DNA from: Synergistaceae bacterium
GTDB lineage: Bacteria > Synergistota > Synergistia > Synergistales > Synergistaceae
DNA length: 53,686 nt
Reading direction: 5' to 3'
Assembly (NCBI GenBank): GCA_031268885.1
Contig: JAIRWR010000057.1
Location: forward strand, 1-53,686
Below, piece by piece: positions 17,254 to 21,994 of this stretch (position 1 is its first letter; every line of letters begins with the position of its first letter). The position numbers and the translations under genes are program-made. The notes below the pieces were generated by a model. It was not told where the DNA came from, did no database searches, and saw only the letters and a list, made by a program, of their open reading frames with translations.

Positions 17254-17988
17254 ATTCATAAAGATGACGCGGCAAGGGCATCCGACGAATGGGAGGAACA
17301 CCTGGAGGAGCTGAGAAAGCGCGTTATCGCGATCCTGGTTGTTTTTGCGGCCGCTTCGGCCGCTGCATTCGTCTTCTCCGACGATATAGCGGGTTTTCTG
17401 ATGGCTCCGGTCTCCAGCCTCGGGGCGAGGCTGTATACTTTCTCCCCCGCGGAGAAGTTCATCGCGTACATGCGCCTCTCCGTATGGACGGGCATTATCG
17501 TGTCGCTGCCGTTTCTGCTGCTTCAGACGGGGCTTTTTATATGGCCGGCTCTGCGCGTCTCGGAGCGCAAGTACGCGCTGGCGGCGCTCACTGTAGTGCC
17601 GGTCCTCTTTATAGCTGGGGCAATGATGTCGTATTGGTTTCTATCGCCGGTCGTGATGAGTTTTTTCCTGTCATTCGCCGCGTCGGACTCCGTCCAGCCA
17701 CTCTGGGGCTTGGGTGAATATCTGGCCTTGCTCGCCGGCATTATGGTCGCGGCCGGCCTTCTTCTGCAAACTCCGCTCCTGCTGCTGCTCTCCTTCTCCC
17801 TGGGGATAACGACGCCAAGACAGGTCGCGCGGGCAAGGCCGTACATAATACTCGTGATCTTTTTACTGGCAGGCATCTTTACGCCTCCGGACGTGATATC
17901 ACAGATTGCCATGGGAGTCCCGCTCTACCTCCTATTTGAACTGTCCCTCTTAGTTGGAGGTCTCCTCAGCCGAAAAAAGCCGGAGTGA
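17254..17988 (+). CDS. tatC: Twin-arginine translocase subunit TatC (no canonical start codon)
   Basis: Receptor subunit of Tat, about 244 aa, six membrane helices. The essential N-terminal motif EWEEHLEELRKR is at 17287-17322, and the PPD motif with SQ is near the end (IFTPPDVISQIAMGVP). The first in-frame ATG (17401) would delete the signal-binding N-terminus and TM1. Between the in-frame stop TAA (17251) and the conserved motif there is no ATG, GTG or TTG. The only near-cognate start is an ATT at 17254, 11 bases after GAGGGGG. The gene may therefore use ATT or may carry a small frameshift (an ATG at 17264 is out of frame by one base). The rest is intact. Confidence 0.85.
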   Translation: MHKDDAARASDEWEEHLEELRKRVIAILVVFAAASAAAFVFSDDIAGFLMAPVSSLGARLYTFSPAEKFIAYMRLSVWTGIIVSLPFLLLQTGLFIWPALRVSERKYALAALTVVPVLFIAGAMMSYWFLSPVVMSFFLSFAASDSVQPLWGLGEYLALLAGIMVAAGLLLQTPLLLLLSFSLGITTPRQVARARPYIILVIFLLAGIFTPPDVISQIAMGVPLYLLFELSLLVGGLLSRKKPE

Positions 17989-18425
17989 CATCATCGATGT
18001 TGGGATTTAATATTGAGATACACTCTCTGGAGCTCAATAAATTACCGGGTGGAGAGGAGAGTGACGATTCGCTCCTTGACTGGCTCTGGCTGATGAAGGC
18101 TGAAAGAATGGAGGAGTATGAGATGCTCGCCGCTAAAAATCCCTCGATTAAACAGACCGTCGATATTTTAAAAAGACTCTCCAGCGACCGGAAGACCAGG
18201 CTCATCTATGACGCGAGGGAAAAAGCGAGGATGGACGAGCGAGCCCGGATGCGCGGAGAATATAACAAGGGGAAGACGGAAGGCAAAGAAGAAGGAATAG
18301 AAGAAGGAATAGAAAGAGGCAAGCTCGAAGTTGCCCTCAATCTATTGGCGGAAGGAATGTCTCCAGAGGCTATAGCAAGGAGCGTCAGACTGCCGATCGA
18401 GAAAATTCGCGAGCTCATGAACTGA
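17985..18425 (+). pseudogene. Rpn-family (PD-(D/E)XK, PDDEXK_2) nuclease, C-terminal remnant
   Basis: An open frame of 146 aa that matches only the C-terminal half of Rpn recombination-promoting nuclease/putative transposase proteins: GFNIEIHSLELNKLPG, then DSLLDWLWLMKAERMEEYEMLA, LIYDAREKARMDERAR, a charged EGKEEGIEEGIERGK repeat and a short HTH-like end (GMSPEAIARSVRLPIEKI). The catalytic PD-(D/E)XK core, about 150 residues, is missing; the frame begins directly at the tatC stop. It is probably a deletion product. Confidence 0.7.
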
Positions 18426-18444: not shown

Positions 18445-19215
18445 TCACGGCCAAATCCCGGACGCGCTAACTGCGACCAATGCGGCGCAGGCTATGAGTA
18501 TCGTTGCGTCGTTTGCGCCGAAGCTGTATCTCTTGTAGCCGCTCAGCCGTGTCCTGAGATTGAACCCGCGCAGTTCCGCCGAGATGGCGCTGTTTTCTAT
18601 CCTTCTCACCGATGATATCAACAGCGGAACGCAGAGCGGGATGAGAAGCCGTATCTTCTTTATGAAATTCCTCGTGTCAAACTCCACTCCCCTTGCGGTC
18701 TGGGCTTCCATGATGCCGGACATCTCCTCCGAAAAGAGCGGTATGAAGCGCGCGGCCGTCGTAATTACGAACGCGTATCTGTACGGTACGCGGAGGTTGC
18801 GCACGAGCACGTTCGAAATATCCCCAACAGGGGTGACCGACAGCATAAGGGCCAGGGGCATGGTGGACGCGAGAAATCGCAGAACGAAGAGCAGCGAAAA
18901 CATCACGCCCTCATATGTGAGCGTTATGCCGAGCGGCAGGGTGAAGATCGGCGTCCCATCCTTTATGAAGAAGAGCTGCAATACAAACAACACAGCGGAG
19001 AACTTCACAAAGGACAGGAGAGTTGATACCGCTCGCGCAATTCCTCCCGCCGACGCAAAGAGACAGAGGTTCAGCCCTATTACACACAATATCAGAACAT
19101 GGTTTCCGCTCAAAAAACAGGACGCGCAAAGGGCGAACGACATGACCATCTTTGTCAGAGGGTGCAGCTTGTGGAGTGGCGAGCTGCCGTTCACGTAGCT
19201 GAGAAACCCGTTCAT
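18445..19215 (-). CDS. ecfT: ECF transporter transmembrane component EcfT
   Basis: 256 aa integral membrane scaffold of an energy-coupling-factor importer. MNGFLSYVNGSSPLHKLHPLTKM is the typical start, five hydrophobic segments follow, and two Arg motifs that dock the ATPases are present: QTARGVEF and AELRGFNLR. Its ATG overlaps the stop of the preceding ATPase gene (ATGA at 19212-19215). Last gene of the S-A-A-T operon, so presumably dedicated to the TrpP-like S component at its head, although EcfT modules can also serve other S components. Confidence 0.93.
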   Translation of the reverse strand: MNGFLSYVNGSSPLHKLHPLTKMVMSFALCASCFLSGNHVLILCVIGLNLCLFASAGGIARAVSTLLSFVKFSAVLFVLQLFFIKDGTPIFTLPLGITLTYEGVMFSLLFVLRFLASTMPLALMLSVTPVGDISNVLVRNLRVPYRYAFVITTAARFIPLFSEEMSGIMEAQTARGVEFDTRNFIKKIRLLIPLCVPLLISSVRRIENSAISAELRGFNLRTRLSGYKRYSFGANDATILIACAALVAVSASGIWP

Positions 19216-20042
19216 GACGTCTTCCCCACGCTGGTCTGCCGCGCCAAAGCCCGCTGCCCGACCGTATCAGCCATCTCGTCTATAGTAAAGATGTTAGCGA
19301 AGCTGTCCCCAAGAGTCATCGCGAGAGCCGGTATCTGCGCTGGAAGCAGCGATGCCTCGCGCAGAACGCCTGGGTCCTTCATGATCCGCCTGACGGGCCC
19401 ATCGCCTATCAGCCTGCCTCCGCTCAAGACGAGTACGCGCCGCGCGAAGTCCGCCACTACCTCCATGTCATGCGAGATCATGAACACAGTCGTTCCCTCC
19501 GCGTTCAAGTTCGACACTATCTCCATGACCGTCATACACTCGCGGTAATCCAGGCCTGTCGTCGGCTCGTCCAAGAGCAGTAATACTGGTTTGCGGGCGA
19601 GTATCGCGGCAAGGGCTATCTGTTGGCGTTCGCCCCGGCTCAGCCCGAATGGATCCCCAAGACCGTCGAGCGAGAACAGCGCCAGAGTCTCATCCGTCCT
19701 CCGGCGCCTCTCGCTCTCGTCGGGGAGGATATATTCGAGACCGAACATTATCTCGCCATACACGGTATTCTGACAGATCTGCCGGTCCGGGTTTTGAAAT
19801 AAAAATCCTGTGAAGCGCGCGATTGCGCTCGTCTTAGTCGTGGCCGTGTCATACCCGCGGACGGAGACACGGCCGGACGTCGGTCTGAGCAGACCGTTGC
19901 AGAGCCTGAGCAGAGTCGATTTTCCAGCCCCATTCTCGCCCAGCAGCGCGACAAACTCTCCCTCCCCGATCTCGAATGAGACATCCGATATCGTAGCGGT
20001 CTCCGTCCTGTAGGAGAATGATACCCTGTCAAAGCGCAGCAT
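19212..20042 (-). CDS. ecfA: ECF transporter ATP-binding protein (second)
   Basis: 276 aa ATPase. Walker A GENGAGKSTLLRLCNG, Q-loop FLFQNPDRQI, signature LSRGERQQIALAAIL (a non-standard LSRGE in place of LSGGQ), Walker B VLLLLDEPTTGLD, H-loop ISHDMEVV. Overlaps the upstream ATPase gene by 14 bases. Forms the EcfA/A' pair with it and powers import together with EcfT. Confidence 0.92.
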   Translation of the reverse strand: MLRFDRVSFSYRTETATISDVSFEIGEGEFVALLGENGAGKSTLLRLCNGLLRPTSGRVSVRGYDTATTKTSAIARFTGFLFQNPDRQICQNTVYGEIMFGLEYILPDESERRRRTDETLALFSLDGLGDPFGLSRGERQQIALAAILARKPVLLLLDEPTTGLDYRECMTVMEIVSNLNAEGTTVFMISHDMEVVADFARRVLVLSGGRLIGDGPVRRIMKDPGVLREASLLPAQIPALAMTLGDSFANIFTIDEMADTVGQRALARQTSVGKTS

Positions 20043-20880
20043 CGCTGAGAATCCCCTCCACCATGATCTTGGCCCGTCCTATGTCAAGCGGGATATCCCC
20101 GTGGTACAGCTCTCTCTCCCGAAGCCTCCTCGCGAGCGTGGCCACCCTCGGTATATTGACGCCCGCATCCTCCAGCCTGTCGGCACTGTCTAAGACATCC
20201 TTCACAGGACCGCACAAGATCAGCTTCCCGCCATCCATGACCGCCAGCCGCCTGGCAAATTCACACAACAGCATTATCTTCTGCTCGACCAGGACGATGG
20301 TGACCCCGTGCTCTTCGTTCAGCTTTTTCAATATTTCGAACACCATCCGGCTCGATTGGGGATCAAGCTCCCCAGTCGGTTCGTCGAGGACCATTATGGA
20401 TGGCCTAAGCGCCACTATGGCTGCTATAGCGGCCTTTTGCTTCTGCCCTCCGGAGAGAGACGCAACCGTCCTGCTCCTCAGTTCGGAGATTCCAGTCGAT
20501 TCAAGAGCGTCATTCATCCTCCGCTCTATCTCGTCGTGGGGTATGCCGAAATTCTCCAGGCCGAAGAGAATTTCGTCCTCCACGACGGACGCGAGCATCT
20601 GACTGTCGATGTCCTGAAACACACTCCCGACGTGACGCGCAAGCTCCTCTGGCTGGTTCTGCCTGGTATCCAGACCGTTTACGGTCACCTCTCCCCGGAA
20701 ATCGCCTCTAAAGTGATGCGGCGCCAGCCCGTTCATCGCGTATGTCAAGGTGGACTTTCCAGCGCCGCTCGAACCGATAATTCCCAGAAAATCGCCGTTG
20801 TTTATCTCGAGGTCGATATCCGAAAGCGCGTTCTTCTCGCCGCCTCCATATTGGAAACTAAGGCCCGTTATCCTTATCAT
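20029..20880 (-). CDS. ecfA: ECF transporter ATP-binding protein (first)
   Basis: 283 aa ATPase. Walker A GSSGAGKSTLTYAMNG, Q-loop SVFQDIDSQ, signature LSGGQKQKAAIAAIVA, Walker B IMVLDEPTGELDP, with the H-loop His replaced: the segment reads VLVEQKIM, which is the EcfA-type VEH/VEQ variant. Lies 34 bases after the S-component gene in the same transcript. Confidence 0.92.
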   Translation of the reverse strand: MIRITGLSFQYGGGEKNALSDIDLEINNGDFLGIIGSSGAGKSTLTYAMNGLAPHHFRGDFRGEVTVNGLDTRQNQPEELARHVGSVFQDIDSQMLASVVEDEILFGLENFGIPHDEIERRMNDALESTGISELRSRTVASLSGGQKQKAAIAAIVALRPSIMVLDEPTGELDPQSSRMVFEILKKLNEEHGVTIVLVEQKIMLLCEFARRLAVMDGGKLILCGPVKDVLDSADRLEDAGVNIPRVATLARRLRERELYHGDIPLDIGRAKIMVEGILSDAAL

Positions 20881-20914: not shown

Positions 20915-21487
20915 TCACTTTTTTAGCGCCAGCCTGAGCGGGGTGTAAAGTGCCTGAACTATGACCGAGTTGATGAACGCCGTCCCGAAGATGATCGCCA
21001 TGAAGGCCACGAGGGGCGTTGGGGTGATGTCGGCGCCGGAGTAGTACATGATATACATGACCCCTATAAACGAAAAACCACTGACAAGAGTACTCAAAAA
21101 CGTGCAGAGAACCGTCTTCACTGGCAGCCCGAAGATTTTGGCAGGCAGCATCGTCAACAGGCACATTGCGATAGCGCCGGCAAACTCGCTCACAAAGTTG
21201 ATGTACGGCTGGCCGGGAAAAAACTGACATATTGCCCCTGCCAGAATCCCTATTATGGCCGCTTCCTTCAAGCGAGGTTTCGTAAGCAGGATTATGAGGC
21301 AGTACATCGCTATGATGAAGTTCGGCTTCATCCCAAAGTTGATCACTGAACCCACGAAGAACTTGAGTACCGCGCCTGCCGCCAGCAGTATTCCGATCAA
21401 CAGCACGTCCGCGATTCCAAGGCCTCTTCTCTCCGTATAAGCCGCATCCTTTTTCTTCATAACATCAACGGTCTCCATGTTCTCCAT
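20915..21487 (-). CDS. TrpP-like ECF substrate-specificity component, probable tryptophan transporter
   Basis: 190 aa membrane protein with six hydrophobic segments. The region FGMKPNFIIAMYCLIILL followed by AAIIGILAGAICQFFPGQPYINF and TLVSGFSFIG is like TrpP (Bacillus tryptophan transporter) and related S components. I chose the ATG at 21487 after an AAGGGG SD at about 10 bases; longer frames run into the leader. The two ATPases and EcfT follow. The 5' leader encodes three consecutive Trp codons followed by a terminator, which independently points to tryptophan (or an indole precursor) as the substrate. Confidence 0.85.
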   Translation of the reverse strand: MENMETVDVMKKKDAAYTERRGLGIADVLLIGILLAAGAVLKFFVGSVINFGMKPNFIIAMYCLIILLTKPRLKEAAIIGILAGAICQFFPGQPYINFVSEFAGAIAMCLLTMLPAKIFGLPVKTVLCTFLSTLVSGFSFIGVMYIMYYSGADITPTPLVAFMAIIFGTAFINSVIVQALYTPLRLALKK

Positions 21488-21607
21488 CTTACACATTCCC
21501 CTTCCATATGTTTTATATTTCGGCAACCCTTTCGCGGGCTCGCCGCACAATAAAGAGGGGCCTCTCTGTCGAGCGCCCCCCGTTATCCGCTATATAAACA
21601 CAAATAC

Positions 21608-21655
21608 AAAAAAAGGGGCTCTGAAAGGAAGTTTTATACCCTCAGAGCCCCTTTT
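21608..21655 (-). terminator. Attenuator terminator of the ECF operon
   Basis: On the minus strand: a 14-bp stem AAAAGGGGCTCTGA / TCAGAGCCCCTTTT (21655-21642 with 21624-21611), a 17-base loop and a run of seven T. It lies between the WWW leader peptide and the S-component start, 121 bases before the latter, so it must be read through for the operon to be expressed. Confidence 0.88.
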
Positions 21656-21674
21656 GAATCTAAAACATCAGAGT

Positions 21675-21706
21675 CCTTCGGGTAGCTTTAACGCCACCAC
21701 CAAAGG
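21675..21706 (-). promoter_or_regulatory. Leader 1:2 hairpin of the trp attenuator
   Basis: CCTTTGG (21706-21700, spanning the Leu codon and first Trp codon) can pair with CCGAAGG (21681-21675, just after the leader stop): seven base pairs with one G-U. This is where a 1:2 pause hairpin is expected. Alternative pairings that would open the terminator exist (TACCC with GGGTA; CTCTGA at 21673-21668 with TCAGAG of the terminator), but I cannot decide between them by eye. Confidence 0.5.
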
Positions 21707-21720
21707 CCCTTATCAATCAT
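21688..21720 (-). CDS. Trp leader peptide (WWW)
   Basis: Short frame ending MIDKGLWWWR then TAA, with three consecutive TGG codons at 21702-21694. The frame lies upstream of a strong terminator and of a TrpP-like transporter operon, exactly as in ribosome-mediated trp attenuation. The ATG at 21720 has no strong SD; an upstream in-frame TTG (about 12 codons earlier, after GGGTGAG) may be the true start, giving about 22 aa. Confidence 0.8.
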   Translation of the reverse strand: MIDKGLWWWR

Positions 21721-21831
21721 AAAAACATCTGCCGCGACAAGAATTTCTCTCTTCAATGCTCTCACCCGCTTCACAACTTTACAACATCTTGACGTGGGAG
21801 AGTCTATCACGACATCCGTAATATTACAATA

Positions 21832-21891
21832 GGGAAAATTTAATTTGGGAAAATTTAATCTGGGAAAATTTAATCTGGGCAAACTCAATCC
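21832..21891. repeat. Four-unit 15-bp tandem repeat
   Basis: Four contiguous 15-bp units of the form GGGAAAATTTAATCT; units 2 and 3 are identical, unit 1 differs by one base, unit 4 (GGGCAAACTCAATCC) by several. It lies between the divergent uxaE gene and the trp leader. It is open in the uxaE frame (GKFNL repeats), but the SD supports a start downstream. Confidence 0.8.
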
Positions 21892-21994
21892 AGGGCACAT
21901 GAAAAATGACGATCCCAGCTATTATGTTACGGAAACAAGTGTTAGACTATATCATATTGAAAGATCAGATATCACATGGATTGGGAGAGAGAAG

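Follow-up and report, generated by a model that had tools for sequence, protein, structure and literature searches.

A putative tryptophan-codon attenuator with two terminator-like hairpins upstream of a predicted tryptophan importer in the Synergistales

Introduction

The window analysed here is a 53,686-nucleotide contig of a Synergistaceae bacterium in which a very short reading frame with three consecutive tryptophan codons precedes the genes of an ECF transporter. This arrangement raises the question of whether an importer operon, in the phylum Synergistota, is controlled by a ribosome that stalls on a leader peptide, and if so how the hairpins of the leader are switched and where else the same RNA is used. 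A preliminary description made from this DNA alone had proposed leader-peptide attenuation of the import operon. We have followed that proposal through the leader itself, its relatives, their predicted RNA pairings and the tryptophan metabolism of the host. Control of the TrpP-ECF operon by ribosome-mediated, Trp-codon transcription attenuation is the reading we favour, with a probability of about 0.9.

Results

The importer operon and its leader

The window is contig C108 of genome G000 (2.4 Mb, completeness 96.8%). Every feature of the attenuator and the importer operon lies on the minus strand, in the 5'-to-3' order promoter candidate, leader gene, 1:2 hairpin, first terminator (T1), second terminator-like hairpin (T2), TrpP, EcfA, EcfA and EcfT (Table 1). 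The preliminary description of a TrpP-like S component followed by EcfA, EcfA and EcfT is borne out by a Pfam TrpP match above its cut-off, two EcfA and a CbiQ-type EcfT, and the presence of all four components in one operon (21487-18445) is what marks a dedicated ECF transporter. Its transported substrate is probably tryptophan, as supported by the Pfam TrpP assignment, by the apparent UGG specifier of the T-boxes that precede orthologous TrpP genes, and by missing Trp pathway genes in the host. Directly beyond the end of EcfT, an open reading frame on the plus strand (17985-18425) resembles, by eye only, a truncated Rpn/transposase-type protein. On the other side of the leader, a short tandem repeat (GGGAAAATTTAATCT, 21836-21880) lies at the 5' end of the divergent reading frame for tagaturonate epimerase (UxaE); it would translate to MGKFNLGKFNLGK, and the true start of UxaE may be downstream.

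Table 1. Predicted features of the leader and the importer operon, with positions in the window
Feature	Position	Strand	Details
Predicted promoter	21801..21828	-	-35 TTGTAA (21828-21823), 16-nt spacer ending TGA, extended -10 TAGACT (21806-21801)
Leader peptide gene	21688..21756	-	TTG start, MKREILVAADVFMIDKGLWWWR*, 22 aa, likely ribosome-binding site GGTGAG
Three consecutive Trp codons	21694..21702	-	TGGTGGTGG, read in sequence
1:2 hairpin over Trp codons and stop codon	21675..21706	-	RNAfold -19.1 kcal/mol, 12 pairs across stop
Region able to form 2:3 antiterminator	21639..21688	-	ACCC 21683-21680 with GGGU at end of strand 3; CUCU/GGGG-type pairs
Terminator T1, strands 3:4	21608..21655 (stem 21655-21611)	-	RNAfold -26.3 kcal/mol, U7
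Second terminator-like hairpin T2, strands 5:6	21549..21581 (hairpin 21581-21555)	-	-19.0 kcal/mol, tail CUUUAUU
S component, TrpP family	20915..21487	-	ATG 21487; Pfam PF17099, E 1.2e-8, 35.4 bits, cut-off 27.2
EcfA-type ATPase	20029..20880	-	ABC_tran; best NCBIfam ECF_ATPase_1, under its equivalog cut-off
Second EcfA-type ATPase	19212..20042	-	ABC_tran; best NCBIfam ECF_ATPase_2, under its equivalog cut-off
EcfT (CbiQ family)	18445..19215	-	Pfam PF02361, E 2e-31

The promoter is probably of the extended -10 type, and the same layout (TTGTCA/TTGCAA, 16-17 nt, TGA, TAGAGT/TAAACT/TAGGCT) is found upstream of three related leaders (L002, L003 and L010). The reading frame first described as MIDKGLWWWR is present as ATGATTGATAAGGGCCTTTGGTGGTGGCGTTAA at 21720-21688 on the minus strand. 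Its proposed ATG start at 21720 has no visible ribosome-binding site, however, and the TTG at 21756 is the likelier start because homologous leaders begin at the aligned MKK/VKR position. The leaders of relatives begin MKKE.., VKR.. or VKKNIF.., and across the alignment their TTG, GTG or ATG starts coincide, with GGTGAG-like sites. Relatives with a divergent N-terminal part of the leader retain the GLWWWR end, and TGGTGGTGGCG occurs only once in the 2.4-Mb genome.

The 166-nt leader is more stable than all of 200 shuffled versions (z -3.9), and the 1:2 hairpin, previously a candidate, folds as proposed. T1 is likewise an intrinsic terminator with the U7 tail first described, although its stem has 17 pairs by RNAfold rather than 14 bp. 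A terminator pattern scan of the leader gave no match, since the loop of T1 is longer than the 8 nt that the scanner allows. T2 was absent from the preliminary description, as was the family-wide regulon described below. The U tract of T2 is weak in the window, and its 5' arm (strand 5) is complementary to the 3' arm of T1 (strand 4).

T-boxes precede orthologous TrpP operons and would speak for an alternative, a direct RNA sensor (T-box or riboswitch) with an incidental reading frame. Against this, Rfam at gathering threshold found no attenuator, T-box or riboswitch in the window leader, and a search of 21400-21900 with E up to 10 returned only unrelated models (miRNA, snoRNA and others), all below cut-off. 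Neither a T-box sequence nor a Stem I with specifier was found in the leader by sequence or by Rfam, and we regard a direct sensor as barely credible.

Predicted control of TrpP in relatives

TrpP homologues were found in 21 of 53 family genomes. At eight of these loci, the window included, TrpP is preceded by a Trp leader, with the ends GLWWWR, GLWWWR, GLWWWRL, GLWWWRG, NSWWWRL, NFWWQWR, NFWWWRV and NSWWRWF. A ninth leader (L063:4789-4872), from a Desulfarculales metagenome-assembled genome, ends NFRWRL with a single UGG and could stem from transfer or from mis-binning. Eight of the nine attenuator-type TrpP leaders thus have three UGG codons, even where the spacing is altered (WWQW, WWRW). 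The preliminary description had staked its case on conservation of the Trp codons in relatives, and these are conserved in eight other TrpP leaders, seven with three and one with one.

Eleven other Synergistaceae TrpP loci have a T-box. Seven of these score 68-91 bits against Rfam RF00230 (E 1e-12 to 1e-18), below its gathering score of 93, and four (L016-L019) were identified by sequence motif; by our own reading, the apparent specifier is UGG (AAAUGGACC). One locus (L004, genome G014) has neither a Trp leader nor a T-box. Among 80 TrpP loci taken from GTDB genomes, T-box motifs prevail in clostridial relatives, while relatives in Treponema are without leader or T-box and often have a promoter palindrome like GTTTCTATATATAGAAAC, which may be a repressor operator for TrpP. 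A palindrome resembling GTTTCTATATATAGAAAC is found in the upstream 100 nt of L029, L032, L034, L039 and other Treponema TrpP loci. The Oligosphaera TrpP locus (L058) has GTTCTAATCGACTAGAAC upstream.

In a TrpP tree of 66 rows, the attenuator-type proteins sit amid TrpP from termite-gut Treponema and Clostridia and away from the T-box-controlled TrpP of other Synergistaceae. Mapped on this tree, the type of control requires three changes, one of which is forced by well-supported branches. This would fit an importer that moved between phyla and then adopted the local trp attenuator, and a single origin with losses could also account for the attenuator-type TrpP.

Predicted alternative pairings across leaders

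A 1:2 hairpin across the stop codon is predicted in all 41 leaders examined, 27 in a first set and 14 in a second. T1 contains pairs that covary (alignment A2). On this mixed alignment RNAalifold recovered only 10 pairs because the clades differ in arm sequence, and per-leader folds and swap tests were therefore used. For the 2:3 antiterminator, we folded the stretch of RNA that a ribosome halted on the first UGG would leave uncovered, and compared it with versions in which region 2 was shuffled; the mean z was -1.71 (n=27 leaders). For the window itself, the 2:3 fold does not stand out from its shuffles (z -0.26, not significant). When each leader's own strands were compared with swapped ones, p was 0.002 in the first set and below 5e-5 in the 14 further leaders, values not corrected for the full phylogeny. 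Pairing of strands 2 and 3 thus has statistical support across relatives. The unremarkable 2:3 fold of the window taken alone would suit a leader that senses a general slow-down of translation, or a mere upstream reading frame before a constitutive partial terminator. Both codons and target genes, however, are Trp-specific across the whole order, and such general sensing appears highly improbable.

T2-type hairpins are present in 36 of the 41 leaders (22 of 27 and 14 of 14), the five exceptions being trpB leaders. Complementarity of strands 4 and 5 was assessed by pairing each strand 4 with its own strand 5 or with that of other leaders; p was 5e-5 in the first set, uncorrected for the full phylogeny, and 0.00085 when strands were permuted only within clade-like groups. 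The second set gave -14.2 versus -13.2 kcal/mol (p=0.03); we turned to this set once the hypothesis had been framed, but its leaders are relatives of those in the first, so that it amounts to a partial replication. In one leader, L105, strands 4 and 5 differ together (GGAGCCUUU with AAAGGUUCC). These data are suggestive of 4:5 pairing, by which T1 and T2 would be switched together. There is nearly an even chance, in our estimate, that only T1 is switched by the ribosome and that T2 is an independent, partly leaky backup, with the complementarity due to GC-rich arms and A/U tracts that the hairpins have in common; such an arrangement would rival the coupling but not the attenuation. The small effect in the second set agrees with independence of T2, as do the lack of T2 in certain leaders and the window's own 4:5 complementarity against shuffles (p=0.10). 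Both first-set swap tests and the concerted change in L105 point instead to coupling, and an uncoupled second terminator would lower expression even under starvation.

The same leader on other genes

Within the same genus, the trpD operon of G003 (trpD, then trpCF, trpB and trpA) is preceded by a leader ending ..SANTGLWWWH and a near-identical terminator. We considered whether the trp operon had been exchanged in place for the importer operon, but this is unsupported because the flanking genes differ: the G003 trpD neighbours (DctM, inositol phosphatase and an acetate kinase family gene) are not neighbours of the window operon.

Leaders of the same kind lie upstream of trpB in many genera and of trpD operons in another family. 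A covariance model of the leader (R1; 96 positions, 10 pairs) matched 38 of the family's 53 genomes at E<=0.01 and, over the order, 53 of 183 at E<=1e-6; many matches are training members, so that these counts show spread rather than independent discovery. Its one match in the host genome is the window leader (71 bits), itself part of the training set. New targets found with R1 include trpEG, trpB-like genes, a TrpX-like ABC_sub_bind importer, an amidohydrolase-MFS pair, and an operon with an indolepyruvate-oxidoreductase-like gene and an AMP-ligase. In many Synergistales relatives, the same RNA thus lies upstream of trp biosynthetic genes.

Several of these loci deserve individual mention. 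An attenuator (GLWRWRV or GLWRWRF) precedes an ABC_sub_bind substrate-binding protein in L181 (G002:C91) and L182 (G056:C60); with a permease next, L182 is a probable TrpXYZ-type importer. A Trp leader precedes an indolepyruvate:ferredoxin-oxidoreductase-like gene in L184 (G060:C165) and L188 (G057:C4), followed in L188 by an AMP-ligase, which suggests use in biosynthetic salvage (indoleacetate to tryptophan) rather than in degradation. In L178 (G057:C119), a Trp leader, NNGLWWWLKPLP, is followed by an amidohydrolase and an MFS transporter. Genome G061 (completeness 95%) has trpE with an attenuator (C46), yet no trpB match at E<=1e-20.

The spread of target genes bears on a further alternative. 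With its Trp-containing peptide encoded ahead of a transporter gene, the window leader resembles tnaC-tnaAB (PMC8429421). In control of the TnaC type, the ribosome would be halted on the nascent leader chain by free tryptophan, access of Rho would change and the operon would be induced at high tryptophan. A mechanism of this type is very improbable for the present leaders, which combine a strong terminator of the intrinsic type with hairpins that compete, keep several UGG codons in changing peptide contexts (WWWR, WWQWR, WWRWF, WWCV, WWLN), and precede synthesis and import genes that would be expected to be on under starvation.

Tryptophan metabolism of the host

Searches of the host genome, 96.8% complete, found no trpB, IGPS or chorismate-binding enzymes (anthranilate synthase) and no TrpR, with control genomes responding as expected. 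The host is therefore likely a tryptophan auxotroph that lacks the TrpR repressor. In its genus, TrpP occurs without trpB in G000 and G001, and trpB without TrpP in G002 and G003; all four are draft genomes, so that these absences are provisional. Strict complementarity of TrpP and trpB was rejected as general evidence, since it holds in the genus but fails over the family. A single T-box-like match was found in the host genome (L023, G000:C130:7320-7583), in front of a gene that by eye resembles argininosuccinate synthase.

Discussion

The preliminary proposal of leader-peptide attenuation on an ECF import operon has been strengthened by the conserved UGG codons and by the occurrence of the same leader on trp biosynthetic genes. 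With ample charged tRNA-Trp, the ribosome would read the 22-codon leader to its stop and keep strand 2 off strand 3, so that T1 would form, with T2 as a backup. When charged tRNA-Trp is scarce, the ribosome would be expected to stall on the UGG triplet within strand 1, allowing strand 2 to pair with strand 3 and block T1. Strand 4, no longer held in T1, may go on to pair with strand 5, in which case T2 would fail too and the importer would be transcribed.

A wider proposal, which we hold tentatively and at slightly less than even odds, is of an uncatalogued Trp attenuator found across the order Synergistales in which two serial terminators are coupled by domino pairs (1:2, 2:3, 3:4, 4:5 and 5:6), such that one stalled ribosome opens both. 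Its regulon would include genes of synthesis, salvage and import, and in the window it would have been placed on an importer whose TrpP lies nearer to the termite-gut Treponema and clostridial proteins than to the TrpP that sister Synergistaceae keep under T-box control. The probable attenuator of the window, by itself, carries leader-peptide attenuation into the phylum Synergistota and onto a dedicated importer of an amino acid. It also shows trpP under three unrelated kinds of control element in different bacteria: a leader peptide, a T-box and, in Treponema, apparently a DNA palindrome. The leader is a practical marker that predicts a tryptophan-related role for downstream genes, as for the ABC importer and for the indolepyruvate oxidoreductase, which may work towards biosynthesis. 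Tandem terminators suggest a way for attenuation alone to keep basal expression low where no TrpR is found.

The enterobacterial trpL attenuator resembles that of the window in its short leader with adjacent Trp codons, its overlapping 1:2, 2:3 and 3:4 pairs and its intrinsic terminator, and the end of the E. coli leader, KGWWRTS, resembles KGLWWWR. The window differs in its ECF importer target, its phylum, its second terminator-like hairpin, its lack of an Rfam match and the absence of a detected TrpR. The Salmonella his attenuator likewise has an additional hairpin in a chain of mutually exclusive pairs, described by an A-F scheme. In his, the last hairpin alone terminates, whereas in the window U tracts follow both 3:4 and 5:6. 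The extra his hairpin and its part in low basal read-through have been discussed (PMC1183508). We found no description of a second terminator in leader-peptide attenuators in the literature searched.

The Trp T-box before TrpP-ECF operons of other Synergistaceae and Clostridia serves the same gene and, through what appears to be a UGG specifier, likewise responds to whether tRNA-Trp is charged, but it is a different RNA that binds the tRNA directly and has no leader peptide. In the Firmicutes, His leader peptides replace T-boxes on the same gene and attenuators hop between genes (PMC2965389, PMC9413887); the present case differs in amino acid, in phylum and in its ECF transporter operon. Actinobacterial Trp attenuators have leaders with double or triple UGG, with antiterminator and terminator (PMC1262725), but these are on biosynthetic operons and trpS rather than on importers. 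Leader-peptide attenuation, exchange with T-boxes and hopping between genes (PMC2965389, PMC9413887, PMC1262725) are thus already known, as is an extra hairpin (PMC1183508). As far as the literature searched and Rfam show, what the Synergistales leaders add to these systems is their phylum, their use on an importer and a pair of terminators that may be switched in concert.
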